From: an uncultured Ectothiorhodospiraceae bacterium
Lineage (GTDB): Bacteria; Pseudomonadota; Gammaproteobacteria; S012-40
Assembly (NCBI GenBank): GCA_945787715.1
Contig: CALZJE010000026.1
Coordinates: forward strand, 1 to 40,610
Length of the DNA: 40,610 nucleotides
Direction of reading: 5' to 3'
Below are positions 2,212 to 34,332 of this stretch, piece by piece. The notes under the pieces are model-generated. The model was given only the letters and a program-made list of their open reading frames with translations, searched no databases and was not told the DNA's origin. Made by a program: the position numbers and the translations under genes. Positions within the stretch are counted from its first letter, which is position 1, and each line of letters opens with the position of its first letter.

Positions 2212-3564
2212 TTAAAAAGAGTTTGATGCAGAGATAAAAATGGATGCACCTAAATATTCGACATCCTGGATTTTAGTGTTGCCATCAACAACTTGGGCTT
2301 GACCCCGACCGTACGTGCCAGCTGCACCAAATGTAATAGAGGAAGTGCGGGTAAAGTGCGAAAGGCTCATTGTTCCGCCAACGATATCAATGTGTTCGTT
2401 AAATTCATTGACCGCATTTTGAGCTAATTTAGGTGTGTTGGCAAAATTAGTATAGCCACCCATGCGTATCGCAAAGCGACTGCTAATATAATATTCTAAT
2501 CCTGCTGCTGCGTTCACAAGCGGGGATTTATTAAGGTTCATTGCTTCATAGATCCAGACACTTGAACTCACCATGAGTGTTTTGCTCGCAAAATAGGCAG
2601 CGCCAAGATTAAGTGTAAAGGGATATTTACGTTTGCTATTGCTTGCCAATTCTATGCGGTTAAATGAATTAGGCTGACATACCGCTCCTGTTGATGTTTC
2701 TTCAAGATAAGATGTCGCACAACTCTGTTGTGTTTTAGTACTTGAATGTAACAATACTATTTTTGATAGTGTTAATCCTAATGAAACCTTTTCAATAGGC
2801 GTTATCATGAATCCCAATATTGGGTTAATACCATATTCACTTACCGATGAATATACATTCTCCCAATGATAGATATTGTTAGTTTCCGTATTTGGAAAAT
2901 CAAAACTTTGGCTCGCAATCTTTTCCTCAGTTCTGTTATAACCATACAAAGTTAAACCAATAGAAATCTTATCGTTGAAGGCGAGTGCATAAGAAGGACC
3001 AATATTGTTAACTGTTGTCTGGTTATTGAAATTCATGGTGAATTTTGTACCAGCTGTTGGGATGTCATTAAATGTTTGGTCTTGATCTTCCAATATCGAG
3101 TCTGTAACAGCATAAGAAAATCCAAGAGTCCCTGATCCTAATGGCTGCGTTATTCCGAAGAAGTTGGGGACAAGAGCAGCAGAGGTTCTTACCCAATCTT
3201 GCCCGCCAAGTACATCTTTGTACCTTGTTTGGGAAACATTGTATGCATTCATGTTTGCAGAAATATTGCTCGTTGTAGCGTAAACAATACCCGCCGGATT
3301 ATAAAAAAGACCAGAAGGATCATCAGCTATTGCAGAATATGCTCCTGCTAATCCTGACGCTCTGTCACCAATCAGCATATTATTATAGTGATATTCATCA
3401 GCAAAAACGCTGTGTGTTAGTAGTGTCGCCATTACAATTTGTAAGCTAACAAATGTGATGTAAGGATTCTTTTTAAAAATTTTCCAAGATGGGGAAATGT
3501 AAAACGTGAAACTCTTTACCTCTGGTTTTACTTTACCTATTAAGTCTCGGTTATTTAATGGCAT
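2212..3564 (-). CDS. FadL/OmpP1/TodX family outer membrane protein
   Basis: About 450 residues, normal for the family. Seen: after the signal region comes GDRASGLAGAYSAIADDPSG followed by LFYNPAGI, the N-terminal hatch signature of OmpP1/FadL porins, then a long alternating beta-strand pattern and a final aromatic residue (SASNSF), usual for outer membrane barrels. The hydrophobic segment FVSLQIVMATLLTHSVFA before DEYHYN is the likely signal peptide, but it is preceded by about 37 residues, which is unusually long. I prefer the ATG at 3564 over a TTG at 3573; either overlaps the end of the M48 gene, which indicates translational coupling. Known: the family carries long-chain fatty acids or other hydrophobic compounds across the outer membrane. 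The substrate here is unknown. Confidence 0.85.
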   Translation of the reverse strand: MPLNNRDLIGKVKPEVKSFTFYISPSWKIFKKNPYITFVSLQIVMATLLTHSVFADEYHYNNMLIGDRASGLAGAYSAIADDPSGLFYNPAGIVYATTSNISANMNAYNVSQTRYKDVLGGQDWVRTSAALVPNFFGITQPLGSGTLGFSYAVTDSILEDQDQTFNDIPTAGTKFTMNFNNQTTVNNIGPSYALAFNDKISIGLTLYGYNRTEEKIASQSFDFPNTETNNIYHWENVYSSVSEYGINPILGFMITPIEKVSLGLTLSKIVLLHSSTKTQQSCATSYLEETSTGAVCQPNSFNRIELASNSKRKYPFTLNLGAAYFASKTLMVSSSVWIYEAMNLNKSPLVNAAAGLEYYISSRFAIRMGGYTNFANTPKLAQNAVNEFNEHIDIVGGTMSLSHFTRTSSITFGAAGTYGRGQAQVVDGNTKIQDVEYLGASIFISASNSF

Positions 3565-4393
3565 ATTTTGCAAACCTTTTCTTCCCTTTGGGAAGTTTTA
3601 GCTTATTTAACCCATCGTTTTTAGCTATTCTATTAAGTGTTTTTAAACGTTTACTGGTAGGTGGGTGTGTTGGTTTTTGGCCTGATTTTTTTTCTTCTTG
3701 TATCGTTAGTTTTTGAATACGCTTTAAATAACGATACATTGCCTTGGGATCATATCCTGTGGCAGCTAACAAAGTGAGTGCCACTTTGTCTGACTCAAAC
3801 TCGTCGTTTTGCTTGAAGCCCTCTTTCATTAATTTATTAACGGCATTATCGACAGCTTGGGTAAATAATACTTGTGCAGAGCTTTGTGAACTTCCTAATA
3901 TTTGAGAAATACCACTGGTCGCTGATTTTTCTTTGCCTTTTATTTTAAACTCTTTGACGATGTGTTTTTCGGTAATATGTGCAATTTCATGGGCAAGTAC
4001 TGCTGCGAGTTCTGATTCATCCCGCATGGCTTTGATAGCGCCTTTGGTGACAAAGATATAACCACCTGGCGCAGAATAAGCATTAATGAAATCGGCATCT
4101 AAAACGGCAAAATGATAGTCAATTTCATCTCGACTGGCGTACAAAGCCAGGGATTTCCCAACCAGGTTTATATAATGTGCGAGTTTTTCGTTCTCATACA
4201 GAGGGAATTGGCCGAGAATTCTAGCAGCTATTGTCTTTCCAAAACGGATTTCTGCATCAATATCTTCGCTAATGTCAGTGTTAGAATTTTCGTGATGAGC
4301 GCGAGAACGAAAATTCTCATCAGCCTGAATAGCTGATGAGAATAAAAGTGAGATTGTTAGAACAAGGGTGGTGAGGGCAGGGCGTTGTATCAT
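3551..4393 (-). CDS. M48 family zinc metalloprotease, periplasmic
   Basis: 280 residues with a cleavable signal (LTTLVLTISLLFSSAIQA). Seen: NAYSAPGGYIFVTKGAI before the zinc motif HEIAH (135-139), and the third ligand region EFESDKVAL with Glu200, the standard M48 layout. The protein ends soon after the protease domain and has none of the C-terminal TPRs of BepA, so it resembles the short LoiP/YcaL type. Known: these enzymes are periplasmic, often lipid-linked, quality-control proteases for outer membrane proteins. I see no lipobox, so it is probably soluble. It sits between an SH3-domain gene (36 bases upstream) and the FadL-type porin gene (overlap of 14 bases). A role in assembling or clearing that porin is a reasonable inference. 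AAAGGA lies upstream of the ATG. Confidence 0.88.
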   Translation of the reverse strand: MIQRPALTTLVLTISLLFSSAIQADENFRSRAHHENSNTDISEDIDAEIRFGKTIAARILGQFPLYENEKLAHYINLVGKSLALYASRDEIDYHFAVLDADFINAYSAPGGYIFVTKGAIKAMRDESELAAVLAHEIAHITEKHIVKEFKIKGKEKSATSGISQILGSSQSSAQVLFTQAVDNAVNKLMKEGFKQNDEFESDKVALTLLAATGYDPKAMYRYLKRIQKLTIQEEKKSGQKPTHPPTSKRLKTLNRIAKNDGLNKLKLPKGKKRFAKYAIK

Positions 4394-4428: not shown

Positions 4429-4911
4429 TTAATTACTGATGGAGTCCATGAAACTGTAGAGCTCATCTTGATTAACAGTTTGTCTTTCAATCTTTTCAAG
4501 TGAGACATAATCCATAACGTCTTTGTTATTAACTCTAGATCGATCGATATTCTTTAATCCTCTCACTGCCGCAGTGGTTGATACGGTGCTAGCTCTTTTA
4601 CGCGAATTGTTAAGAAGTTTAGAGTCTTCACTGGCTATTCTTCGTTTACGTTTCAATGGTGGGTGATTAGAGACAGCCAAACGAGACATATAACCGACTT
4701 GGCCATTATGTTTTACTTTAAACCAGTTCGCTTGTTTTTCGAGGTTAGTAACTTTTTGACCTTTCATTACATTATCGAGTGTTTTTGATCCAAAAACGGG
4801 ACTAGATAAAATTTTTGCTCTTGCACTCATAACATATAAATATTCATCCGCTGCGAACGTCGTCAGCGGTATACTGATTAAGAATGCCAGTAAAAAGGTA
4901 AGCTTTTTCAT
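4429..4911 (-). CDS. periplasmic bacterial SH3-domain protein
   Basis: 160 residues with a signal peptide (MKKLTFLLAFLISIPLTTFA, cleavage before ADEYLY). Seen: one SH3_3-type domain at about 24-82, with the typical ARAKILSSPVFGSKTLDNV, GQKV, NWFKVKHNGQVGYMSR pattern. A basic, Ser/Thr-rich tail follows, including STTAAVRGL, a phrase recurring in small SH3 proteins of this kind. Known: bacterial SH3 domains often bind peptidoglycan peptides or other proteins. It is the second gene of the minus-strand cluster after the cyclase (gap 210 bases) and directly upstream of the M48 protease. Inference: a partner or targeting subunit for that protease. The exact role is unknown. Confidence 0.75.
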   Translation of the reverse strand: MKKLTFLLAFLISIPLTTFAADEYLYVMSARAKILSSPVFGSKTLDNVMKGQKVTNLEKQANWFKVKHNGQVGYMSRLAVSNHPPLKRKRRIASEDSKLLNNSRKRASTVSTTAAVRGLKNIDRSRVNNKDVMDYVSLEKIERQTVNQDELYSFMDSISN

Positions 4912-5121: not shown

Positions 5122-7338
5122 TCATTTACTCGTCATGGTGAATACGCCATCCCACTGTAAATCTGGTGGAGACTTTTTAAATTCTTCACAACGATCACGC
5201 ATAAGATTATGCACGCTATCGCGAGGCAACAGTTTAAGTTCAAGAAGTGCGGCATCCCACTCTTGGTTAAGATAGTGTTCAAACACCTTGTTGCTCGCAT
5301 CTGCTATTTTAAAGGCCTCTTGTAGTGTCTCTTCATCAACCTGGTCGGGCAGTAATAGAGGCTGCAAGATTTTAATCGGTTTCTTTTTACCTTTAACCCT
5401 GACTAGATCAACGGGAACACAAGGTATAGGTGTTTTTAGGCATTTATAAGTTTCTTCTGTAATGAGAATTGCGATGCCATATTGCTTAGTTAAACCTTCA
5501 ATACGTGACGCGAGGTTTACATTATCGCCAATAATGGTGTAATCCAGCTTGCTTTCAGATCCGATATTTCCCAGTATGGCGTCCCCAGTGTGGATACCAA
5601 CGCCGATGGTAATTGGTTCTAGGCCTTTTTCTTTAAGCCATTCGTTGACAATTTTGAGCCGATTAATCATATCCAACGCTGCAATTGTTGCTTTTTCCGC
5701 ATGATCTTCTGACTTTATCGGTGCGCCCCAGAACGCCATAATGGCATCGCCAATGAACTTGTCGATAGTGCCTTGTTGGTTGAAGATGGCATCCGTCATG
5801 GAAGAGAAGTAGTGGTTTAACATTTCAACCACTTTTTCTGCACTGAGTTTTTCAGACATATTGGTGAAACTGCGTATGTCGGAGAAAAGCATGGTGATAT
5901 TCTCTTTGCTACCTACTTCAGCTTTAGCAAATTCTTCGTGATTATCAACCACAGTACTCAGTACCGCTGGTGACAGATATTGAGACATCATACGTTTGAA
6001 CTTTCGCTTTTCACGACCTTCCATTAATACCATGGCTGTAAATGATGCCACCCAAGTTCCAAGCAATGATGCCATAGGTGCTACCATATCGATGACATAA
6101 TTATTTTGAAATAAATAATATGCGGCAGTTAAAAAGAGTAACGCTACACTGAGGGGGAGCAAGTTTTTTATGACAATACGTTTTATAAAAAGCACACTTA
6201 AAGCAGTAATAATGCTGAAAATCAGAATTAAACTATAGGTGATTTTCACATCTGAGGGAATTAAGAAATCATGATCTAATATATTACTTGCCAGCGACGC
6301 ATGGATGAATACACCAGGTAATCTAGCGTCAATCGGTGTGTTTTTTAAATCATTTAATCCGGCAGCGCTACCACCGATAAAAATAAGTTTGCCTTTCAAT
6401 TCTTCAGGATCAACGAGAATATTTTCAATATTGCCGCTTTGAATGGCGTGCAATGAAGCAATGAGTCCACTAAAGGAATAGGTGTTATAGTTACCGTAGT
6501 AATTAACCAATACTTTTTCAGACTTATCGACCGGAATTTTTAGTTTGTCAATTTCTACCCTATTATCTTGATGTGTGATTTTATTCGGTTTTAAATCATC
6601 GATTATTGCTGCAGTAGAAAGTGATGGGAAATAATCACCCTGATAATTATGAAATAATCTCGCACGTCGGTAAACACTATCATTATCAGCTTGCACTTCC
6701 ACCACGCCAATTCCGCTAGTGGCATTTAATAGCTCTGGGAAGGGTAAGTAGAAGTTGTTGTTGTTTTTCGCGCTTAGATCAATAACATTACGACTAAGAG
6801 GCGAGCCATCCACATTTCGATGCCGTAAAGAAAATAGCTCTACGGTTCCTTCCGGTAATGGTCTATTCAGCTTTACATGACTAGTTTCATCATCAGCGAT
6901 TGAATCCAAAATAAATCGAACGGCATGATAGACAAAAGGATAACGGCTGGTGGATTCGACGAGTTCTAGATCATCGGGATTTATGGTTTGTGACTGTTCT
7001 GCATCCACTTTATGTTTTTCTGTAAAAGTGATATCAAACATCACTCCCTTCGGTTCTGCAAACGATAAAAATTCAAGCAAATCTGCATAAACAAATCTAG
7101 GCCAAGGCCATCGACCTGCATAGTTATCCATAGCATCTAACGATGCATCATCGATTAAAACAACAGCAACATCATTATTTGCTTTTTTATCTGAGCGTAT
7201 TTCAGACATGCGCCAGTCATAGCTAATACCTTCCAATGTGTTCAGTGAACCATAGGCGTGAAGTACCGATACCATAAAACTGATGACAAAGATGATCAGG
7301 GTTGGACGCAGAAATAATTTTGCTTTATTGTTTAACAA
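5122..7338 (-). CDS. CHASE2-domain adenylate/guanylate cyclase (class III)
   Basis: 738 residues. Order: TM helix at about 12-30; extracytoplasmic CHASE2 sensor at about 31-360 (begins SYDWRM, contains DVAVVLIDDASL and RWPWPR); three TM helices at about 365-437; short linker; class III cyclase domain at about 478-640; and an approximately 90-residue C-terminal tail. Catalytic residues are all present: metal Asp487 (FSDIRSFT) and Asp531 (IGDAIMAFWG), base-recognition Lys527 and Thr601, and transition-state Asn608 and Arg612. The Lys/Thr pair favours ATP, so cAMP is the likelier product. The start must be the TTG at 7338 or later, because a TAA lies three codons upstream and a later start would lose the first TM. 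It heads the cluster cyclase - SH3 - M48 - porin, which suggests envelope sensing. Confidence 0.92.
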   Translation of the reverse strand: MLNNKAKLFLRPTLIIFVISFMVSVLHAYGSLNTLEGISYDWRMSEIRSDKKANNDVAVVLIDDASLDAMDNYAGRWPWPRFVYADLLEFLSFAEPKGVMFDITFTEKHKVDAEQSQTINPDDLELVESTSRYPFVYHAVRFILDSIADDETSHVKLNRPLPEGTVELFSLRHRNVDGSPLSRNVIDLSAKNNNNFYLPFPELLNATSGIGVVEVQADNDSVYRRARLFHNYQGDYFPSLSTAAIIDDLKPNKITHQDNRVEIDKLKIPVDKSEKVLVNYYGNYNTYSFSGLIASLHAIQSGNIENILVDPEELKGKLIFIGGSAAGLNDLKNTPIDARLPGVFIHASLASNILDHDFLIPSDVKITYSLILIFSIITALSVLFIKRIVIKNLLPLSVALLFLTAAYYLFQNNYVIDMVAPMASLLGTWVASFTAMVLMEGREKRKFKRMMSQYLSPAVLSTVVDNHEEFAKAEVGSKENITMLFSDIRSFTNMSEKLSAEKVVEMLNHYFSSMTDAIFNQQGTIDKFIGDAIMAFWGAPIKSEDHAEKATIAALDMINRLKIVNEWLKEKGLEPITIGVGIHTGDAILGNIGSESKLDYTIIGDNVNLASRIEGLTKQYGIAILITEETYKCLKTPIPCVPVDLVRVKGKKKPIKILQPLLLPDQVDEETLQEAFKIADASNKVFEHYLNQEWDAALLELKLLPRDSVHNLMRDRCEEFKKSPPDLQWDGVFTMTSK

Positions 7339-7529: not shown

Positions 7530-7955
7530 ATGAAAGCCAAAATATTATCGGCAGGCGTCGTAATTGTTCGCCGCGAAAAAGGTGAATTTTTGTACTTGCT
7601 TCTGCGTGCTTACAATCACTGGGATTTCCCTAAGGGTGTTGTGGAAGAGGGTGAGAAAGCATTGGATGGTGCTTTAAGAGAAGTGCGCGAAGAATCAACA
7701 ATTACTGACTTACAATTTACCTGGGGTTATCAATATCGCGAGACGGGCCCCTATGGCATCGGAAAAGTGGCGCGCTACTATCTTGCTGAAACTCAGGAAA
7801 ACTCAGTCAGTTTACCCATTAATCCTGAGATTGGAAAAGCCGAGCATGAAGAATTTCGATGGGTTAACTATAATGATGCAAGCAGTTTAGTTTCGCCACG
7901 TGTGAGATCTGTATTAGATTGGTCTCAGGATATTCTCAAATACATTGATATTTAA
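7530..7955 (+). CDS. Nudix hydrolase, bis(5'-nucleosyl)-tetraphosphatase-like
   Basis: 141 residues, a single Nudix domain. Seen: Nudix box from Gly36 to Ile58 with Glu42, Arg50-Glu51 and Glu54-Glu55; the terminal Gly of the consensus GX5EX7REUXEEXGU is Thr57. The opening AGVVIVRREKGEFLYLLLRAYNHWDFPKG resembles asymmetrical Ap4A hydrolases (human NUDT2 type). Known: these enzymes split diadenosine tetraphosphate to ATP and AMP in the cytoplasm. The substrate cannot be fixed from the motif alone, and an RppH-type or other Nudix role is possible. It is divergent from the cyclase gene (about 190 bases between starts) and monocistronic by appearance. Confidence 0.85.
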   Translation: MKAKILSAGVVIVRREKGEFLYLLLRAYNHWDFPKGVVEEGEKALDGALREVREESTITDLQFTWGYQYRETGPYGIGKVARYYLAETQENSVSLPINPEIGKAEHEEFRWVNYNDASSLVSPRVRSVLDWSQDILKYIDI

Positions 7956-8089: not shown

Positions 8090-10189
8090 ATGATGAAAGC
8101 GGCACTGAAAGAAGAGCAATTTCTAATTTTTCGAGTGGGTCTGGTTGCCTGCTGCGTACCAATAGAATCAATTGATTCTGTTGTACGTGCGCAATCCCAG
8201 GAGTTACATCATTTCCCTAATCAAGCAAGCTATATCAGCGGTGTGATTCAACATCGAGGTAAAGCCATATCTATTGTCAATCTTTTTCAAAAATTTGCTC
8301 AAACTCCTCCTCGGGATGAACCGGGTGATTATATTCTGTCTCATACCAAATTTGGCCTTGTCGGATTTTGGGTTAACGAAGTACTTGAAATTATTAATAC
8401 CAATGATGAAGACTGGGGTGCTTCTCCAAAGTTTCTTGGCGAGAACATATTTCATCAAACGCTACTGTGGCACGACAAACTAATTCTAAAGACTGAATTT
8501 GATTGCTTAATTGCGATGAATGATTCCGAGCGCTTACATGAGTGGGCAATTCAAAACAACTCAGATTTGTTCACGCAGCCAGCGGCAAATTCAACCTTCG
8601 AAGAGTTGGAAGACTCTCAAAATATTGATCACAATGAATCTGTGATTCCGGATCAAAGCGATATTGTTTTTCAACATTCTCAGCCAGTAGTAGTTTCTAC
8701 AGCAAACGAGTTGCCCAGTATATCGACAGAAATTAATAACGATATTGAAGTGGTGGAAACAGAACCTGACACAAACTTTGAAAGCGCATTGCCGACTATT
8801 GGACAAGAGTCAGAAGTTCAAACTCCGCTATCGAGTGTTGAATTAGCAGTTTTGAATATAGAAGAGACAGACATAATCAGCTCAGCAATTGAGGACAAAA
8901 GTTCTTTCGCAGAGACAATGCCTGTTAATGAAGCAGTGGTTGGCAATGAAACAGCGGTTGCTAATGAAAAAGTGGTGAACAGTCAGCCGATTAACAACAG
9001 CTCAAAAATTGATTCGAAGCTGGATATAGCTGAAGAAACAACGGCTGCTCCAGGCTCTGCACAATTTATGGCAGGCAGCGATGTCGTCAACGATGTCGTC
9101 AGCGATATTGGTGTGACAGTTCCTAATACTTCCATGATTGGCGAACAACTCACCAAGACTAAGCCGTTAATATCGGCCAATAACGATATTACACCGTCCA
9201 AATCAGTAAGTGAAAATTCCCATTCAACAACGGAAAAAATATCACAGCAAATAAACCACGACGAAGACTCCTTTCATGAAAGTGCTTTTGCCGAGGTAGA
9301 AAAGCTAGTTACTGATGATGAAAAATCCAGTGCGGAAGTTATTGAACAAACGTCTGACTCTGATATAGAAACGACTATTCCATCAGAGCAACAAAATCTG
9401 CCAGATATTAAAACGACTGACAAACATGTAATCGTTGACGTTGAAAAAAATGAGATCAAAGAGGGTAGTAACGAAGAACCCTCATCGATGAGTGAATTTA
9501 AAACAAACGATAGCATAGATAATGCTATTAATGACTATATTGCAAAAACCGAAAGTGGTTTTCAGGACACAAACAATAATGATTCAATAACTGAAGACTT
9601 TGATGCGGAAATTGAAGCGCAAATGGCTGAAAAGCGCGAAGCATCGATTCATAAAGTTATCAACCGAATAGAGAAGAATAATCCTAAAGATTCTGCTGTT
9701 AATCGATTCCGCCTCATTGCGAGTGTTATAGTTGCAGCGTCTGCTGTTTTTTTCGTTCAACATTATTACATGAATGGCGATGGTACATTATCTTCTGACT
9801 CACGTACCATTGAATTGCTAGCAGATAACAAACTTGAATCTGTACCAAACAGCCAATCAATTTTAAACACGGTAGAAAGTAATGTTACCAGTAGCACTGA
9901 TAACGACAGCAGTGAAGAAAACCCAATATTACTAATAAACTCTATACCAAAATCACAAAGTGTTCGGCAATCAACAATGCCGGAACCAATTTTTCCTTGG
10001 CGCAAACATGTTGTTAATAAGGGAGATACACTTTGGGATCTTTCTGAATACTATTTGAAAAATCCTTTCCGATATCCTGAGTTGGCTCGCTGGAGCAATA
10101 TTAAAAATCCAGATCTCATTTATCCAGGTGATGAAGTGAAATATCAGGATGATCAGGGTGTTGAAGTACAGTCGTATAGAAAACAGTAA
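8090..10189 (+). CDS. CheW-like / transmembrane / LysM fusion protein
   Basis: 699 residues. Order: N-terminal CheW-like domain at about 9-143 (FLIFRVGLVACCVPIESIDSVVR, ISGVIQHRGKAISIVNLF, then FGLVGFWVNEVLEI); a very acidic, Ser/Thr/Asn/Glu-rich, low-complexity linker at about 145-530; one TM helix at about 540-560 (RLIASVIVAASAVFFVQHYYM); a polar stretch; and a C-terminal LysM domain at about 637-685 with GDTLWDLSEYYL and NPDLIYPGDEV. The likely topology is CheW in the cytoplasm and LysM in the periplasm. Known: CheW couples receptors to CheA, and LysM binds peptidoglycan. Inference: it could tether a chemosensory complex to the cell wall. No cheA or receptor gene is in the window. FimV also joins LysM, TM and a cytoplasmic domain, but in the opposite order and without CheW. 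Confidence 0.8.
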   Translation: MMKAALKEEQFLIFRVGLVACCVPIESIDSVVRAQSQELHHFPNQASYISGVIQHRGKAISIVNLFQKFAQTPPRDEPGDYILSHTKFGLVGFWVNEVLEIINTNDEDWGASPKFLGENIFHQTLLWHDKLILKTEFDCLIAMNDSERLHEWAIQNNSDLFTQPAANSTFEELEDSQNIDHNESVIPDQSDIVFQHSQPVVVSTANELPSISTEINNDIEVVETEPDTNFESALPTIGQESEVQTPLSSVELAVLNIEETDIISSAIEDKSSFAETMPVNEAVVGNETAVANEKVVNSQPINNSSKIDSKLDIAEETTAAPGSAQFMAGSDVVNDVVSDIGVTVPNTSMIGEQLTKTKPLISANNDITPSKSVSENSHSTTEKISQQINHDEDSFHESAFAEVEKLVTDDEKSSAEVIEQTSDSDIETTIPSEQQNLPDIKTTDKHVIVDVEKNEIKEGSNEEPSSMSEFKTNDSIDNAINDYIAKTESGFQDTNNNDSITEDFDAEIEAQMAEKREASIHKVINRIEKNNPKDSAVNRFRLIASVIVAASAVFFVQHYYMNGDGTLSSDSRTIELLADNKLESVPNSQSILNTVESNVTSSTDNDSSEENPILLINSIPKSQSVRQSTMPEPIFPWRKHVVNKGDTLWDLSEYYLKNPFRYPELARWSNIKNPDLIYPGDEVKYQDDQGVEVQSYRKQ

Positions 10190-16737: not shown

Positions 16738-17958
16738 TTAGTTTGCAGAGTTTGTCATGTCTTTAGATGGCTCATAACGAATGACTCTCGCAATTATTCC
16801 AAACTTGGGATGGTCAATATAGTAGACTTTGGATAAACGAACTCTTTTCGAACCCTGTAGGCGATAACCGATAAACGGCGGTTTTTCGGGAGTTAAAAAA
16901 CTCTCAGCATGATTCTGTTCAGAAGCAATAGTGTGCTCTAGAATCTCTAATTCTGGTTTTAAAGACTCATCTCTAATGTCTGATTCTCCCACTTCGTCCC
17001 TGAGTAGCTGCTCAGCGGTTTCTATCTCAATGTTCTTTTTTAATGCCTGATTTGCCGCTTCATTAGTTGGAAAATTTTCCACGTGATTTTCTGGCGTGAG
17101 GAGAAAACTGTTTTCAGTTACAGTTTCAGTGTCTAAAAAGTTATCCACACCATCTATATTATCCACAGCAGGTTCTTCAGTCTGTATAAGCTGTGGATAA
17201 ATCGTATGTTCGGTAATGATTTCGTGATCTCTGTAGATAAAATCAAGACTGATGTGCATGAATCGGCTTTTTGATAAACGAACCGTCCCATATATTTTGT
17301 GTTCGGGAGGACCCATTGTGGAAAAATCGACAGGATGAGATTCAGGAATAATAGGATTTTCATCAAAAGGGATGATCGGGTCGAGCATACTGAGTTGGTT
17401 TTCAGGACCTAACTGAAGCAATGTTTCATTCATCCTCTGCCTGTCTGCTAATTCATCGACAATTTTAACCGGTTCTTCAATTCGCTGATAAAGAAGATTG
17501 TCAGATTTGGATGCGATAAAAACGGGTAAACCTGAACTGTTGTCATCAACCGTTTGGTGCCATATTCGATGTAGCAATACGTTGTATTTGGAATTTTTTG
17601 ACATTCTCTTCACGTATGTCGAGAAATCATCATTAGAGGCGAAGTTAGGTTCTAAGTAATAAAAGGGAAGTTGATCAATTTCCGGATCAGTGAGTAATTC
17701 AAATGAATTCACCAGTTCTACACTACCGGTAATCGTCGGTGGTTCTGTGTTCTCTGCCCAGGTTTCGGTTTCACTGTCACTGGTACGAGTAAAAACTATG
17801 ATCTCTACTTCATACTGTTTTTCTTCAATTTCATCATCTCTTTGCTCTTTTGCAAGTGCGCTGTTTAAAAATCCCAATAAGCAAAATAGATAAAAGAGGG
17901 TGATGAAAAGAAATGCAGACTTTTTAGCATTAGCGGAAATAAATCTATTACTTAGCAT
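16738..17958 (-). CDS. csiV: CsiV-family peptidoglycan-binding protein
   Basis: 406 residues. Seen: signal peptide (AFLFITLFYLFCLLGFLNSALA), then YEVEIIVFTRTSDSETETW, the usual N-terminal CsiV phrase, and at the C-terminus GSKRVRLSKVYYIDHPKFGIIARVIRYEP, the CsiV signature ending. A Glu/Asn-rich, poorly conserved insertion lies at about 270-350. Known: in Acinetobacter, CsiV binds peptidoglycan and glycans, and its loss is synthetic with capsule defects; in many gammaproteobacteria it lies next to mfd and nagZ as here. The start is the ATG at 17958. It is convergent with the MTIP gene and separated from def by a 486-base gap. Confidence 0.85.
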   Translation of the reverse strand: MLSNRFISANAKKSAFLFITLFYLFCLLGFLNSALAKEQRDDEIEEKQYEVEIIVFTRTSDSETETWAENTEPPTITGSVELVNSFELLTDPEIDQLPFYYLEPNFASNDDFSTYVKRMSKNSKYNVLLHRIWHQTVDDNSSGLPVFIASKSDNLLYQRIEEPVKIVDELADRQRMNETLLQLGPENQLSMLDPIIPFDENPIIPESHPVDFSTMGPPEHKIYGTVRLSKSRFMHISLDFIYRDHEIITEHTIYPQLIQTEEPAVDNIDGVDNFLDTETVTENSFLLTPENHVENFPTNEAANQALKKNIEIETAEQLLRDEVGESDIRDESLKPELEILEHTIASEQNHAESFLTPEKPPFIGYRLQGSKRVRLSKVYYIDHPKFGIIARVIRYEPSKDMTNSAN

Positions 17959-24250: not shown

Positions 24251-26578
24251 ATGAAGAGGGTAACATCGTTAAGCACTTTCTCTTTAAATACATATCTTTT
24301 CTCGCTTTTAGCTGCATTCCTAACGTTCTATGTTGTGTTTGTTATCGTTAATAGTGATTCTGAACAAGTCACCCCTGTTGTAGTATCAAACTCTCCGACA
24401 GATATCACGGAATTAAAAACGGATGATACAGATAAAGTAATAAAGAAATCAGAACCCGATATCGTGTTTGTGTATAAGAATAAATCAGATTCTGAAAGTA
24501 AAGATGAAGAAAAGCCTTCACCTTCTGTAGTAGATTTAAGTCAGGCTAGTAGCACAACTCCAAAAATCGCCAAAGTAGAAGATGACAATCTAAAAGATAA
24601 TGATTTCTTAAAAAATGTAGAAGTGATTGAAGAAATTGAAGCTGAAGAAATTGCACAAAATATCGTTGATAAAGAAATAGTAGAATTAAAAGAAAGAATT
24701 ATTATTGCGATCAAAGAAAATACTTCGTTTATCACTCACATTAAAAACCCTAATAATTCTGCTAGAAACACAATATTTTCCGTTGAAGATAATGTTGATC
24801 AGTTATTTTCCATTGATTCAACTCAAGGATTACTTTCATTTGCATATAATACTGATCATGAACGCCCTCAAGGTTTTTCAGGAACTAATATTTATTTCAT
24901 AAAAGTCTCAATGGAAACAGATGCTCAAAAGATTATCCAGCCTGTTTCAATTTTTGTTGAAAACGTTAATGATAATGTTCCAAAGTTCTCAAATGCAGAT
25001 ATCTTCGATATCGAAGAAAACACTCAGTTTATTGCAAACGTAAACGCGACAGATGCTGATGGAGACTCTATTACATACTCCTTACCAGATAACGCAAATA
25101 ATATGTTTAGTATTGATTCGTTATCTGGGAAATTAACATTTGTTGATGCACTAAAATATGAAGATTTTGTTAATAAGAATTCTTCTAATAGTGTTATGTT
25201 AGAAGTTAGTGCGGATGATGGGGAAAAAGAAACACTACAATTGATAACCATTAATCTAGTCAATGCGAATGATGAAGCGCCCGTTATTACCAGCAATAAT
25301 ACTATACGTGTATTTGAAAATTATGGGGTGTTACATCAGGTAACAGCTAGTGATACATTTACTGATAAGCTAAATTATTTTATTAAAAATGATCCTTACA
25401 ATTTGTTCAGTATCAATGATAAATCTGGAGAACTTACATTTACTGGCTCAACGGATTACGAAAACATCAACAATATAAAAAACTATCATCAATATAATGT
25501 GGAAATTGGTGTAAGTAATGGTAAACATAGTGCTTCGCAAATATTAACATTAGAACTTATCAATACTAACGATAACAGCCCTTTCATCACTAGCGAGAGT
25601 GATATTTCTGTGTTGGATATTGGGGGAAATATTGCGCAACTCACAGCAATAGATTTGGACAATGATGAAGTCAGTTACAAAATAGTGGAGGGTAATGATC
25701 AAGAAATATTTAGTTTGAATCAATATTCGGGAGCATTAAAATTTACGCAGACACAAAAACTAAATAATATAGATAAGAACACAAAAGATAAACATCACAT
25801 ACTTAAAGTCAGCGTATCTGATGGTTTTCACCAAACAGAGAAACTTCTAAATATTACTGTCAAACAACCTGATCTAGTGAGCAATGTTAATATACTTGAC
25901 CGTGGATTGGCACGCTGTATACAATCACAGAATAAAAAATATGTTCATGAAGTGGTAGAGTTAACTTGTGTAAATAAAGGTATAAAAATATTAATGGGTT
26001 TGGATAAATTCACTCATCTACATACATTGAACTTGGCTGAAAATAACATAAAATATATAAAACCCATCGCAAGTCTAAAATCTCTAAAAAATCTAAATAT
26101 CAATGACAATTTCGTGTCAAATATTGACCCACTAAAAGGTTTATCCAAATTAACTTCAATAGAGTTAGCAATTAATGCGATTAGTGATATTACGCCATTA
26201 TCGCAGTTGGAAAATCTAAAATTTCTTGATATTAGTGAAAATCGTCAGTTAGAAATGATTGACACTATTGCCAATTTTAAAAATCTAATTTATCTGGATA
26301 TAAGTCAGAATAAGCGCATTGATAATTTTGGCAGTCTTGTGCATTTGGAAAGCCTAGAATTCATTGGTATAGCATATAGCAATATAAATGACCTTTTAAT
26401 GCTACAACCCTTGAAGAAACTAGCTACAATCAATTTGCAGAGCACACAAGCAGAAAAACTAGAACCTTTTAAAACTTTGACTCATCTTAAATGGATATCT
26501 GTTGTCAACAGTGAGTTTGAAGATGAATCATCAGTTGAAAGAAACGCTGAGCTTGTATTAAATAGTGGTCAAAGTTGA
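24251..26578 (+). CDS. membrane-anchored cadherin-repeat and leucine-rich-repeat protein
   Basis: 775 residues. Order: short basic N-terminus and one TM or uncleaved signal helix at about 13-34 (YLFSLLAAFLTFYVVFVIV); acidic linker to about 150; about four cadherin-like repeats at about 150-540, joined by VNDNVP, ANDEAP and TNDNSP and each carrying an FSID/FSIN-x-SGxLTF strand pair; a two-Cys cap (ARCIQSQ... ELTCVNKG, about 553-573); then roughly seven leucine-rich repeats of the internalin/SDS22 kind (about 577-770; LHTLNLAENNIKYI, LKNLNINDNFVSNI). Known: cadherin repeats bind calcium between domains, and LRRs bind proteins. Inference: a periplasmic or surface-exposed adhesive or scaffold protein. 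Its end overlaps the RND pump gene tail-to-tail by 10 bases. Confidence 0.8.
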   Translation: MKRVTSLSTFSLNTYLFSLLAAFLTFYVVFVIVNSDSEQVTPVVVSNSPTDITELKTDDTDKVIKKSEPDIVFVYKNKSDSESKDEEKPSPSVVDLSQASSTTPKIAKVEDDNLKDNDFLKNVEVIEEIEAEEIAQNIVDKEIVELKERIIIAIKENTSFITHIKNPNNSARNTIFSVEDNVDQLFSIDSTQGLLSFAYNTDHERPQGFSGTNIYFIKVSMETDAQKIIQPVSIFVENVNDNVPKFSNADIFDIEENTQFIANVNATDADGDSITYSLPDNANNMFSIDSLSGKLTFVDALKYEDFVNKNSSNSVMLEVSADDGEKETLQLITINLVNANDEAPVITSNNTIRVFENYGVLHQVTASDTFTDKLNYFIKNDPYNLFSINDKSGELTFTGSTDYENINNIKNYHQYNVEIGVSNGKHSASQILTLELINTNDNSPFITSESDISVLDIGGNIAQLTAIDLDNDEVSYKIVEGNDQEIFSLNQYSGALKFTQTQKLNNIDKNTKDKHHILKVSVSDGFHQTEKLLNITVKQPDLVSNVNILDRGLARCIQSQNKKYVHEVVELTCVNKGIKILMGLDKFTHLHTLNLAENNIKYIKPIASLKSLKNLNINDNFVSNIDPLKGLSKLTSIELAINAISDITPLSQLENLKFLDISENRQLEMIDTIANFKNLIYLDISQNKRIDNFGSLVHLESLEFIGIAYSNINDLLMLQPLKKLATINLQSTQAEKLEPFKTLTHLKWISVVNSEFEDESSVERNAELVLNSGQS

Positions 26579-31155: not shown

Positions 31156-34100
31156 TTGCGTTTAAATTACCCAACACACTTTCTAAACTTGCTTATCATA
31201 AGCAGTCTATCTTTATTGGCAATAGCTGATATTTCAGCAAATTCAAAAAATTCAATTACCCACTCAAATTTACCGCAATTTTTTGAATACAATCGCGGAC
31301 AATATGACAGGTCTTATCAGTTTGTTGCACATAATCAAAATAGCTACTTTGCATATGCACCAGAACATATTGCCATATTTCTTGCGGGGGAAAAAATAGA
31401 CCACCAAATGACCATGAGATTTATTGGTGGTAACAAAAACGCAAAACTCCAAGGTAAAAACAAACGTCAGCATGTGATTAACTACCTGCGCGGAAGATCA
31501 AATCAAGCCCTCAATAATATATCTACATATGCGCAATTACATTACCGTGAAGTTTATCCCGGAATCGATGTACAGTTTTATTTTAACGACATGCTTTTGG
31601 AATATGACTTTGTTGTTAAGCCTTATGTCGATACTCAACAAATTTCAATAGACTTCGAACATGCTGATGCGATTTCAGTCAATGATTTAGGACAACTGGT
31701 CATATCCGTTGGTGATAAAACACTAATTCAACGAGCGCCGGTGAGTTATCAATTGGTAAATGGAAAACGTGTTGCTGTTGAAAGCCATTATTCGTTAAAG
31801 AATGACACTGTTGGCGTTGTACTGGCGAGCTATGATAAATCACTCCCGCTAGTTATTGACCCTATTATAGAGTTTTCCAGCTATTTTGGTGGTGAATGGG
31901 AAGATCAAGCAAGCGAAATAGAAACAGATAGCGAAGGCAATGTTTGGGTAGCCGGTGCGACAGCCACTAAGACTCGTATTACTTTTCAAAACGAAATGAC
32001 ACTTGAAAATACTGCACTTGCCACTTTAGAAGATACAAATACCGTCCATTTTTTTGATGATCTACATGGTGTAGGGCTACCTAATGATTTTAAAGATGAT
32101 GGTGTGACTGTCGACATTGATAACGACACAAAATATACCATTGTTGATGGTGTACGTGAGGACACTGAGTTCAATTATGAGTGCCGCTATAACTATCAAG
32201 GGACTTTTAGTAATGATCGGATAATTACCGATTATGATGCATTTCTTACCAAGTTTAATCCACAAATGGAGCCAATATTTACCACCTATTTTGGTGGCTG
32301 TGGTAATGACGGGGTAAGAGACATGGTTATTGATGATAATGTTGATGGTCCTGGTAATAATGTCTATCTTGTTGGTTTCACTTTGTCAGAAGATTTTCCA
32401 GTAAAATTCCCTGCACAATCGACGTTAGCACCTTCTCGTTTTACAACTGAAGCTGATGCGATACAAGCCGATAGTTTTTACGCGAAATTTGATAACGACG
32501 GTGGACAAGTATATACCAGTTATTTAGGCGGGAATGGTCGTGATGGCGCACGTGGCGTTGCCGTTGATGCTGATGAAAATATCTATATCACAGGTTATAC
32601 ACATTCAAATAACTTAGCAACAACACCCTGTACAGGCGGAATTCAAGATACAATCGCGTGTGAAAATATTGGTGGTGTTGATGAAACAGCTGCCAATCAG
32701 GGTTCAAATGACATCAGTTTATTTTCCGATGCTTTTATTGCTAAAGTTTCCAAAGTGGGTAATGTTATCGAGTTTCTCACCTATTTTGGTGGTCAGTTTG
32801 ATGATTGGGGGCAAACCATTGCCTTACAGAGTGATGGTGTAGTCGTAGCCGGAAATAGTGCTTCTAACAACCTACCTGTAAGCTTGGATGGCTATTCTTA
32901 TATGGCGAAAAATCGCTTTTTTGTGGAAGTAGATGATAAGCAGGTAGAAAAGCCATGTTCACGTTTAAAGACAGAAGAATTTCTGGATTTACGTCAGGCT
33001 GATGCACACGTCTGCGAAGATGTTTTTGTTACCAAATTATCGTTCGATGGAACAGATGTGCTATTTACCACTTATTTGGGCGGAGATAAAGATGACAATA
33101 TCTCCGATTTGAAAGTTGATAGTAACGATAATATATATCTCATCGGCACAACTCGGTCGCAGGGTGTGCAGTTGGAAGATGGGAAACCGGCAACCATAGA
33201 CAGTTCACCACTGAGTGATCGTTATCCACTCTACAAACATATTAAAAAATACGATTTTGACGTTGATTCATTGTCCACCATTGCATTTTTCTCTATTTTC
33301 AATCCTAGTGCTTCTGAATTACTAATGTCGAGTTTTATTGGCGCAGAAGATGATGATGCAGGAACAGCGTTAGCAATTAACGAAAAATCTTTTAACGGGG
33401 CAGAGCTTATCGCAGCTGACGTTTTTCTAGGTGGTCATACGGTATCCCAAAACTTCTACACTCACAATGCATTTCAAAGCCAAAGCGCAAATAGCGATGT
33501 CTTTATTCTGAAGATAGCACTGGCGCTGGATAAATTTTCCGAACCCTACAGTATTGATCCTGAAAATCCTGGTGGCTGCAATAAGGATGGTTGTGATTTG
33601 TATGAACTGAAATATTCAACGTTAATGGGTGGAGAGAGCCTGGATGCATTAAAAGGCATCTCTTATTCTCAATTCGATAATCAACTCTTGTTAGCGGGTT
33701 CCACTTTTTCCAAAAAATTTCCGATGACAAGTAATGCATTAAAAAGTGAGATAGAAGAGATAACAGAAATAGAGTACGATCCTTTTACGAGAGCAATCGT
33801 TGATCAATATGGCTATTACCCAGCGGATACTTTTATTATGAAAATAAAGGACGTTGATGAATTTGTTGATTTAGAAATTGCTTTAACAAATTCGTTGGTA
33901 AACGAAGTAAAAGAAGATAGTTTTGTCACTTATAATGTGAATGTTTCAAATAACAGTTCCTCGGTTGAAGCAAAGTCAGTTCGCTTGATCGTAAATTTCC
34001 CACACATTTCTATTAAAGAGAAGCTTGGTAATTATATTAATTATGAGCAAGATGACTGTGTGTTAGAGTTAAGATATCTGTATTGTGTGATTGGTGATCT

Positions 34101-34332
34101 ACCAGCAGGTGAAGAGAAAGCCATAACAATAAATATCTCAGCACGAAATAGTGGTAGCTTTGTCACTGATTTTAGTGTGATGTCCATAACTGCAGATGAT
34201 AATGTTAAAAATAACACAATAACCACTAGTGTTCATGTCAAATCAAAATCGAGTAGCGCGCAACTGAGTGTGTTATTTTTAATGCTTCTTCTCATTTTTC
34301 CACTTTATCGAAAGTTGATTTTAAAAAACTAA
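31156..34332 (+). CDS. secreted SBBP-repeat beta-propeller protein
   Basis: 1058 residues. The start is a TTG with AAGGA 8 bases upstream; a nearer ATG at 31148 runs into a stop after five codons. Seen: signal peptide (LLIISSLSLLAIADISA); an N-terminal DUF7948-like domain at about 38-230 (PQFFEYNRGQYD, YREVYPGIDVQFYF, VIDPIIEFSSYFGG); repeated SBBP units with TYFGG, SYLGGNGRDGARGVAVDADENIYITGYT and related phrases at about 235-890; a DUF11/CARDB-like Ig domain at about 903-1030; and a C-terminal TM helix with basic end (VLFLMLLLIFPLYRKLILKN). Four Cys pairs lie in the propeller. Inference: exported, anchored by its C-terminus. It lacks the GG of GlyGly-CTERM tags. Function unknown. Confidence 0.8.
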   Translation: MRLNYPTHFLNLLIISSLSLLAIADISANSKNSITHSNLPQFFEYNRGQYDRSYQFVAHNQNSYFAYAPEHIAIFLAGEKIDHQMTMRFIGGNKNAKLQGKNKRQHVINYLRGRSNQALNNISTYAQLHYREVYPGIDVQFYFNDMLLEYDFVVKPYVDTQQISIDFEHADAISVNDLGQLVISVGDKTLIQRAPVSYQLVNGKRVAVESHYSLKNDTVGVVLASYDKSLPLVIDPIIEFSSYFGGEWEDQASEIETDSEGNVWVAGATATKTRITFQNEMTLENTALATLEDTNTVHFFDDLHGVGLPNDFKDDGVTVDIDNDTKYTIVDGVREDTEFNYECRYNYQGTFSNDRIITDYDAFLTKFNPQMEPIFTTYFGGCGNDGVRDMVIDDNVDGPGNNVYLVGFTLSEDFPVKFPAQSTLAPSRFTTEADAIQADSFYAKFDNDGGQVYTSYLGGNGRDGARGVAVDADENIYITGYTHSNNLATTPCTGGIQDTIACENIGGVDETAANQGSNDISLFSDAFIAKVSKVGNVIEFLTYFGGQFDDWGQTIALQSDGVVVAGNSASNNLPVSLDGYSYMAKNRFFVEVDDKQVEKPCSRLKTEEFLDLRQADAHVCEDVFVTKLSFDGTDVLFTTYLGGDKDDNISDLKVDSNDNIYLIGTTRSQGVQLEDGKPATIDSSPLSDRYPLYKHIKKYDFDVDSLSTIAFFSIFNPSASELLMSSFIGAEDDDAGTALAINEKSFNGAELIAADVFLGGHTVSQNFYTHNAFQSQSANSDVFILKIALALDKFSEPYSIDPENPGGCNKDGCDLYELKYSTLMGGESLDALKGISYSQFDNQLLLAGSTFSKKFPMTSNALKSEIEEITEIEYDPFTRAIVDQYGYYPADTFIMKIKDVDEFVDLEIALTNSLVNEVKEDSFVTYNVNVSNNSSSVEAKSVRLIVNFPHISIKEKLGNYINYEQDDCVLELRYLYCVIGDLPAGEEKAITINISARNSGSFVTDFSVMSITADDNVKNNTITTSVHVKSKSSSAQLSVLFLMLLLIFPLYRKLILKN

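Follow-up and report, generated by a model that had tools for sequence, protein, structure and literature searches.

A conserved gammaproteobacterial protein joining a CheW-like domain to a LysM domain: a candidate wall-anchored adaptor of chemosensory arrays

Introduction

How bacteria position their chemosensory arrays is understood in few cases (ParC/ParP with HubP/FimV). One reading frame of the window, by which we mean the whole 40,610-nucleotide stretch of DNA analysed here, joins a CheW-like domain and a LysM domain in a single chain, and thus raises the question of whether such a protein could serve as a cell-wall anchor for a chemosensory complex, as the initial annotation of the locus proposed, and of whether its CheW domain would act there as a signalling component or as a docking module.

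Results

Domain organization and predicted fold

The coordinates of the gene, its domains and its conserved neighbours are collected in Table 1. The second Met of the 699-residue frame coincides with the start of the orthologues, so that the true start is probably at position 8093. Pfam searches place CheW (PF01584) at residues 10–112 (E-value 1.9e-13, 50.6 bits against a cut-off of 23.5) and LysM (PF01476) at residues 640–683 (8.4e-7, 29.3 bits against a cut-off of 20.9); beyond these two, no other credible Pfam domain was found in the protein. The CheW match spans just 102 of the 138 profile positions, ending at position 102, as might be expected of a truncated domain. The fold is nevertheless complete, since the AF2 model and its structural alignment show the whole domain. 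The model (23 sequences) has pLDDT values of about 80–96 for most of residues 10–160 and of 76–96 over residues 631–690, a helix of transmembrane length at residues 536–560, and a linker mostly below 50. Alignment of the model with VIA-align gives, for the CheW domain, Z-scores of 16.9 with 9a72_B (135 residues, spanning 6–142) and of 16.1 with T. maritima CheW (2ch4_W, model residues 6–144), the two-subdomain CheW fold being retained, and a Z-score of 8.2 for the LysM domain with the LysM of Kbp.K/GINKO1. The assignment of the N-terminal domain as CheW-like, which structure prediction could have overturned, is thus borne out, as is the presence of a C-terminal LysM domain and one transmembrane helix in the same chain. 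Peptidoglycan binding by the LysM domain is putative.

Table 1. Features of the fusion gene and of its conserved neighbours, in window coordinates
Feature	Position	Strand	Basis
CheW–linker–TM–LysM protein, copy A, 699 residues	8090..10189	+	ORF, Pfam, orthologue starts, AF2
Complete CheW-like domain, residues 6–144	8105..8521	+	Pfam, AF2, VIA-align
Ser30 in place of Glu38 (E. coli CheW); loss of a salt-bridge partner	8177..8179	+	Alignment
QHRG replacing NLRG (E. coli 60–63); Arg62 equivalent R56 kept	8249..8260	+	Alignment
Disordered acidic cytoplasmic linker, residues 162–503	8573..9598	+	pLDDT mostly <50, composition
Juxtamembrane helix preceding the TM helix, residues 504–529	9599..9676	+	AF2; similar in genus relative and G003 remnant protein
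Single TM helix, residues 536–560, N-in	9695..9769	+	Positive-inside bias, AF2
LysM domain, residues 637–690, predicted periplasmic	9998..10159	+	Pfam, AF2, VIA-align
Nudix hydrolase immediately 5' of the fusion gene; neighbour retained in most f1 genomes	7530..7955	+	Pfam, locus comparison
Divergent CHASE2–class III adenylate/guanylate cyclase; conserved neighbour in f1	5122..7338	-	Pfam, locus comparison
SH3_3 protein, conserved neighbouring block	4429..4911	-	Pfam, locus comparison
M48 peptidase, conserved neighbouring block	3551..4393	-	Pfam, locus comparison
Probable outer-membrane barrel, conserved neighbouring block	2212..3573	-	Weak Toluene_X/PorV-like match below cut-off

Topology and linker

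Hydropathy analysis reveals one transmembrane segment outside the CheW domain; a second hydrophobic stretch, at residues 10–28, corresponds to CheW β-strands in the AF2 model. The best hydrophobic helix also lies between CheW and LysM in 25 homologues. Lys and Arg residues within 20 positions of the helix number five inside and one outside in the window protein, and 99 on the N-terminal side and 41 on the C-terminal side over the 25 homologues. This positive-inside bias points to an N-in/C-out orientation, which would make CheW cytoplasmic and LysM periplasmic, and the topology initially suggested is consistent with it.

The linker carries 20% Asp+Glu and 5% Lys+Arg over residues 161–500, for a net charge of −53 that stems largely from the scarcity of basic residues. 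It had been described as about 390 residues long and very acidic: the acidity holds, the length is rather 340–375 residues, and "very" appears somewhat strong in view of a CsiV-family (peptidoglycan-binding) protein of 406 residues, encoded in the same window at 16738–17958 (minus strand), whose 19.7% Asp+Glu over 340 residues is nearly linker-like. Linkers from the window's own family (f1) are acidic, with net charges of −12 to −118; those outside f1 are mostly Pro-rich and neutral to basic, with net charges of about +2 to +14 and one exception at −31. Acidity is thus f1-specific and was discarded both as a general trait of the architecture and as its defining feature. The defining linker traits are length, which ranges from roughly 90 to 600 residues across homologues, and low complexity.

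Distribution of the architecture

Scanning of genome contigs with the single sequence gave no match, whereas an alignment-based scan succeeded, its weaker matches being other CheW proteins. In the class-wide scan, strong matches came from several families besides f1; those weaker than about 1e-24 were not counted, since most belonged to ordinary CheW proteins or to LysM proteins of other kinds. The survey of gammaproteobacteria that the initial annotation had called for yielded 34 proteins from several families with CheW and LysM in a single frame (25 found at first and nine more from family f137). Outside f1, fused frames occur in families f137, f127, f34, f124, f49 and f125, and in f137 the fusion is present in 17 of 54 genomes and 7 of 14 genera. 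Most f1 genomes have copy A, the one described here, a paralogous copy B, or both; orthologues of copy A occur in the majority of them, and copy B is found in the window's own genome (G000 contig C51, a 753-residue frame) and in others. One carrier (L063) has a family name, being an uncultured Ectothiorhodospiraceae bacterium; the remaining carriers with a name are gammaproteobacterial MAGs without further classification. A phylum-wide sample of 299 genomes, with few per family, gave a match at E ≤ 1e-24 in the window's own genome alone. The CheW-LysM architecture is a conserved gene family and not a single-genome oddity, and an assembly artefact was ruled out, the same domain order recurring in many independent genomes. 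In a tree of CheW domains the 28 fusion rows are all found to the same side of a single branch (mean of 21.5 changes after shuffling); support for this branch is modest (87/30), and it is present in 84% of the bootstrap trees.

Several loci depart from the single-frame layout. Two genomes, G136 (L173:8062-9466) and G189 (L172), carry the gene as a pair of frames that overlap or adjoin, which probably reflects sequence error or decay and less likely a programmed frameshift, and fusion frames are cut by contig ends in G112 and G047. At the same locus in G003, a 168-residue ORF (L055:7155-7658, plus strand) keeps the juxtamembrane helix and TM helix, sharing about 42% identity with the window protein over this part, without CheW or LysM. 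G112 also encodes a LysM-TM-coiled-coil protein with no detectable CheW domain (L171:6213-8534, plus strand), divergent to a response regulator-CheB-MCP-CheW cluster; it is a separate link between such a wall anchor and a chemosensory cluster. In G007, a short FimV_N protein of 528 residues with a C-terminal TM helix (L048:5776-7359, minus strand) lies directly downstream of a copy-B fusion; its counterparts lie elsewhere in the other genomes checked.

Residue pattern of the CheW domain

We aligned 37 fusion CheW domains with 29 ordinary CheW/CheV domains, seven ParP-like domains and the CheW proteins of E. coli and T. maritima. The structural invariants are retained in 86–97% of the fusions (E. 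coli P49 in 35/37, G57, V102 and D103 each in 36/37, V36 in 32/37). The E. coli residues Glu38, Asn60 and Leu61 are found in 1, 1 and 0 of the 37 fusions, in 29, 25 and 27 of the 29 ordinary CheW/CheV domains, and in none of the seven ParP-like ones, a set chosen on gene position beside cheW and on sequence rather than on function. Arg62 is kept in 14 of 37 fusions, all of them f1 copies. In ordinary CheW, Glu38 and Arg62 form a salt bridge, R62A leaves partner affinity near normal and impairs chemotaxis, and residues 55–68 are a proposed CheA-binding site (PMC3828127). The window protein thus lacks the Glu38-Arg62 pair and the NLRG motif of a signalling CheW, keeping the Arg62 equivalent.

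The receptor-groove positions L14, V27, I30 and V33 of T. maritima CheW correspond to L12, I25, I28 and V31 in the window protein, all hydrophobic, and outside f1 one groove position is Ala, Ser or Thr and Arg62 is lost. Acidic E100 stands at the position of E. coli D107, which touches the receptor in the core-unit model (PMC6954272). T. maritima CheW has a Met aligned to Glu38, so that this position alone is not diagnostic; moreover, E38A was reported to disrupt receptor binding of E. coli CheW, and the loss of Glu38 could therefore also mean weaker receptor binding. Taken together, the residues fit a CheW domain that docks rather than one that signals. Proteins carrying CheW in two or three copies were also encountered (L154, L157 and L153 in class-level genomes, L132 and L187); several adjoin MCP-like and other chemosensory-type genes, and those aligned retain Glu38 and Arg62.

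Genomic context and co-occurrence

Copies A and B both lie outside che operons. In f1 genomes, the barrel, M48, SH3 and CHASE2 cyclase genes on one strand and the Nudix and fusion genes on the other persist as a block even where the far flank is rearranged. Outside f1 the fusion often follows rsmA, and not the cyclase, so that a link to the cyclase is possible for f1 only. Elsewhere in the window, predicted proteins of 775 residues with cadherin and leucine-rich repeats (24251-26578, plus strand) and of 1058 residues with DUF7948/SBBP/DUF11 domains (31156-34332, plus strand) are encoded.

CheA is present in all 13 genomes of the window's order and in all 14 other carriers checked. Within f137 it occurs in 16 of 17 fusion-bearing genomes versus 16 of 37 others (Fisher p = 3e-4), an association that is suggestive only and phylogenetically confounded, since p rises to 0.035 for genomes at least 90% complete and to 0.46 at genus level (7/7 versus 5/7). 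FimV_N is nearly universal in f137 (49/54 genomes), so that the fusion does not simply track FimV. It is likewise found in 13/13 genomes of the window's order, and on this ground the fusion was ruled out as a FimV replacement. Several chemosensory clusters were located in the window's own genome: contig C104 of G000 has a ParP-like gene between a ParA-type ATPase gene and cheW, and contig C6 (L184:7365-13779) has, in a row, genes for CheA, CheW, an ATPase of the ParA type and an MCP with globin and PAS domains that is predicted to be soluble, which looks like a positioned cytoplasmic array.

Discussion

We propose that the fusion is a ParP-like adaptor that is anchored to the wall and positions arrays, and not a CheW that signals, a reading based on sequence and predicted structure to which we give about even chances. 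The cytoplasmic CheW domain would dock into a chemosensory array, with receptor tips and/or the CheA-CheW ring as the likeliest sites; the disordered linker would act as a flexible cytoplasmic leash leading, with the TM helix, to the periplasmic LysM domain, which would hold peptidoglycan and so fix the site. With CheW docked to the array and LysM gripping the wall, the protein would pin an array to the wall, or nucleate it there, with the pole as a plausible place. The CheW fold is retained, its Glu38 and NLRG residues are gone, as they are in ParP, and the domain no longer resembles a signalling coupler. In ParP, an adaptor for which the linking of arrays to the pole has been demonstrated by experiment, the CheW-like domain has MCPs and CheA as binding partners and tethers arrays (PMC5706961); in HubP, the LysM domain is both required and sufficient to target the protein to the pole (PMC8789113). 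The idea of a cell-wall anchor for a chemosensory complex is partly supported, being in keeping with the cross-family conservation, the CheA co-occurrence and the ParP-like residues, with the amendment that a ParP-type tether fits better than a signalling CheW. Array binding, peptidoglycan binding and localization are what we infer. Counted against the adaptor are the location outside che operons, the phylogenetic confounding of the CheA association, the altered groove position and lost Arg62 outside f1, and the shortened G003 gene without CheW and LysM; without the NLRG region, a proposed CheA-binding site, the domain might also have given up binding to arrays. Moreover, the genome already possesses the ParA–ParP-like–CheW gene order and a FimV-type protein, so that the job may be covered.

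Other explanations can be set against the same observations. The CheW fold could now serve for general docking within a hub of the pole or envelope that has nothing to do with MCP arrays, possibly in concert with the CHASE2 cyclase in f1. The link of FimV to cAMP control in Pseudomonas offers an analogy for a hub-cyclase pairing, and the metal-site and substrate-site motifs of the cyclase look intact. The loss of Glu38 and NLRG, the block kept in f1 and the position of the fusion genes outside che operons would all agree with such a hub; we nonetheless consider it rather improbable, given that the fusion tracks CheA, that the structural invariants and several receptor-groove hydrophobics are retained, and that the neighbour outside f1 is often rsmA and not a cyclase.

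A sensor of wall or turgor state, in which engagement of peptidoglycan by LysM is relayed through the TM helix to CheW and alters CheA activity, would make use of a single membrane-crossing chain bearing both domains and of the predicted juxtamembrane helix. However, a linker of about 90–600 residues between TM helix and CheW, predicted to be disordered in the window protein, is a poor conformational route, and the Glu38-Arg62 pair needed for CheW signalling function is lost, so that we regard this mechanism as distinctly unlikely. Finally, the residue pattern may mean binding without signalling, as would suit a decoy in the membrane that ties up receptors or CheA and damps the signalling of a competing system; a decoy leaves the conserved LysM domain unexplained and has no operon link to an antagonized system, and its likelihood appears to us slight.

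On a bolder reading, the fusions would constitute a so far undescribed class of array anchor in which a CheW domain without its signalling residues is tied straight to peptidoglycan through LysM, the wall setting the position of the array with neither a ParA-type ATPase nor a FimV/HubP hub involved, and with two paralogues in one family; this we hold to be somewhat short of an even prospect.

Comparison with known systems

No protein with this domain order was known at the initial annotation, and no paper on a CheW-LysM fusion was found among open full texts, the material covered. Compared with ordinary CheW, the fusion shares the complete fold (Z-scores of 16–17) and differs in its membrane and wall linkage, in the loss of Glu38 and NLRG and in its location outside che operons. 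CheV is likewise a multi-domain adaptor with CheW, but combines it with a receiver and keeps Glu38 and Arg62. The LysM domain is closest, by NCBIfam match and fold, to KbpA/YgaU-type proteins, from which the fusion differs in that it is membrane anchored and that no BON domain was found in it.

FimV/HubP proteins share with the fusion a periplasmic LysM, a single TM helix and, for f1 only, a long acidic cytoplasmic region. However, the orientation is reversed, CheW being N-terminal and inside and LysM C-terminal and outside; FimV_N (PF25800) gives no Pfam match at E ≤ 1 in the 699-residue protein, and LysM occupies the C-terminus in place of a TPR/FimV domain. The initial comparison, similar in idea to FimV with a different layout, holds as an analogy and is qualified by this opposite orientation and by the FimV-type protein (a 949-residue frame) that coexists in the genome, which indicates that the fusion is not a FimV replacement.

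A close parallel is the ParP of the Vibrio ParC/ParP system, whose AIF (array-integrating) domain is CheW-like, is joined by a long linker to a localization module, and binds MCP and CheA; the fusion is alike in its residue pattern, having lost the same Glu38 and NLRG residues, and its proposed array-tethering role is alike as well. The tether of ParP is the ParA-like ATPase ParC, that of the fusion would be the wall, and whereas ParP has an N-terminal localization module and a C-terminal AIF domain, the fusion runs from N-terminal CheW through TM to LysM. It lacks the ParC-interacting N-terminus, which is here the CheW domain, and a position between parC and cheW, the locus holding no che operon. 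We regard the fusion as a variation on array-positioning adaptors already described, in which a wall anchor would replace the ParA-type partner. If this is true, a single protein would connect the array to the wall, a simpler way of positioning, and the residue loss common to ParP and the fusion would be a signature telling positioning adaptors from signalling CheW.
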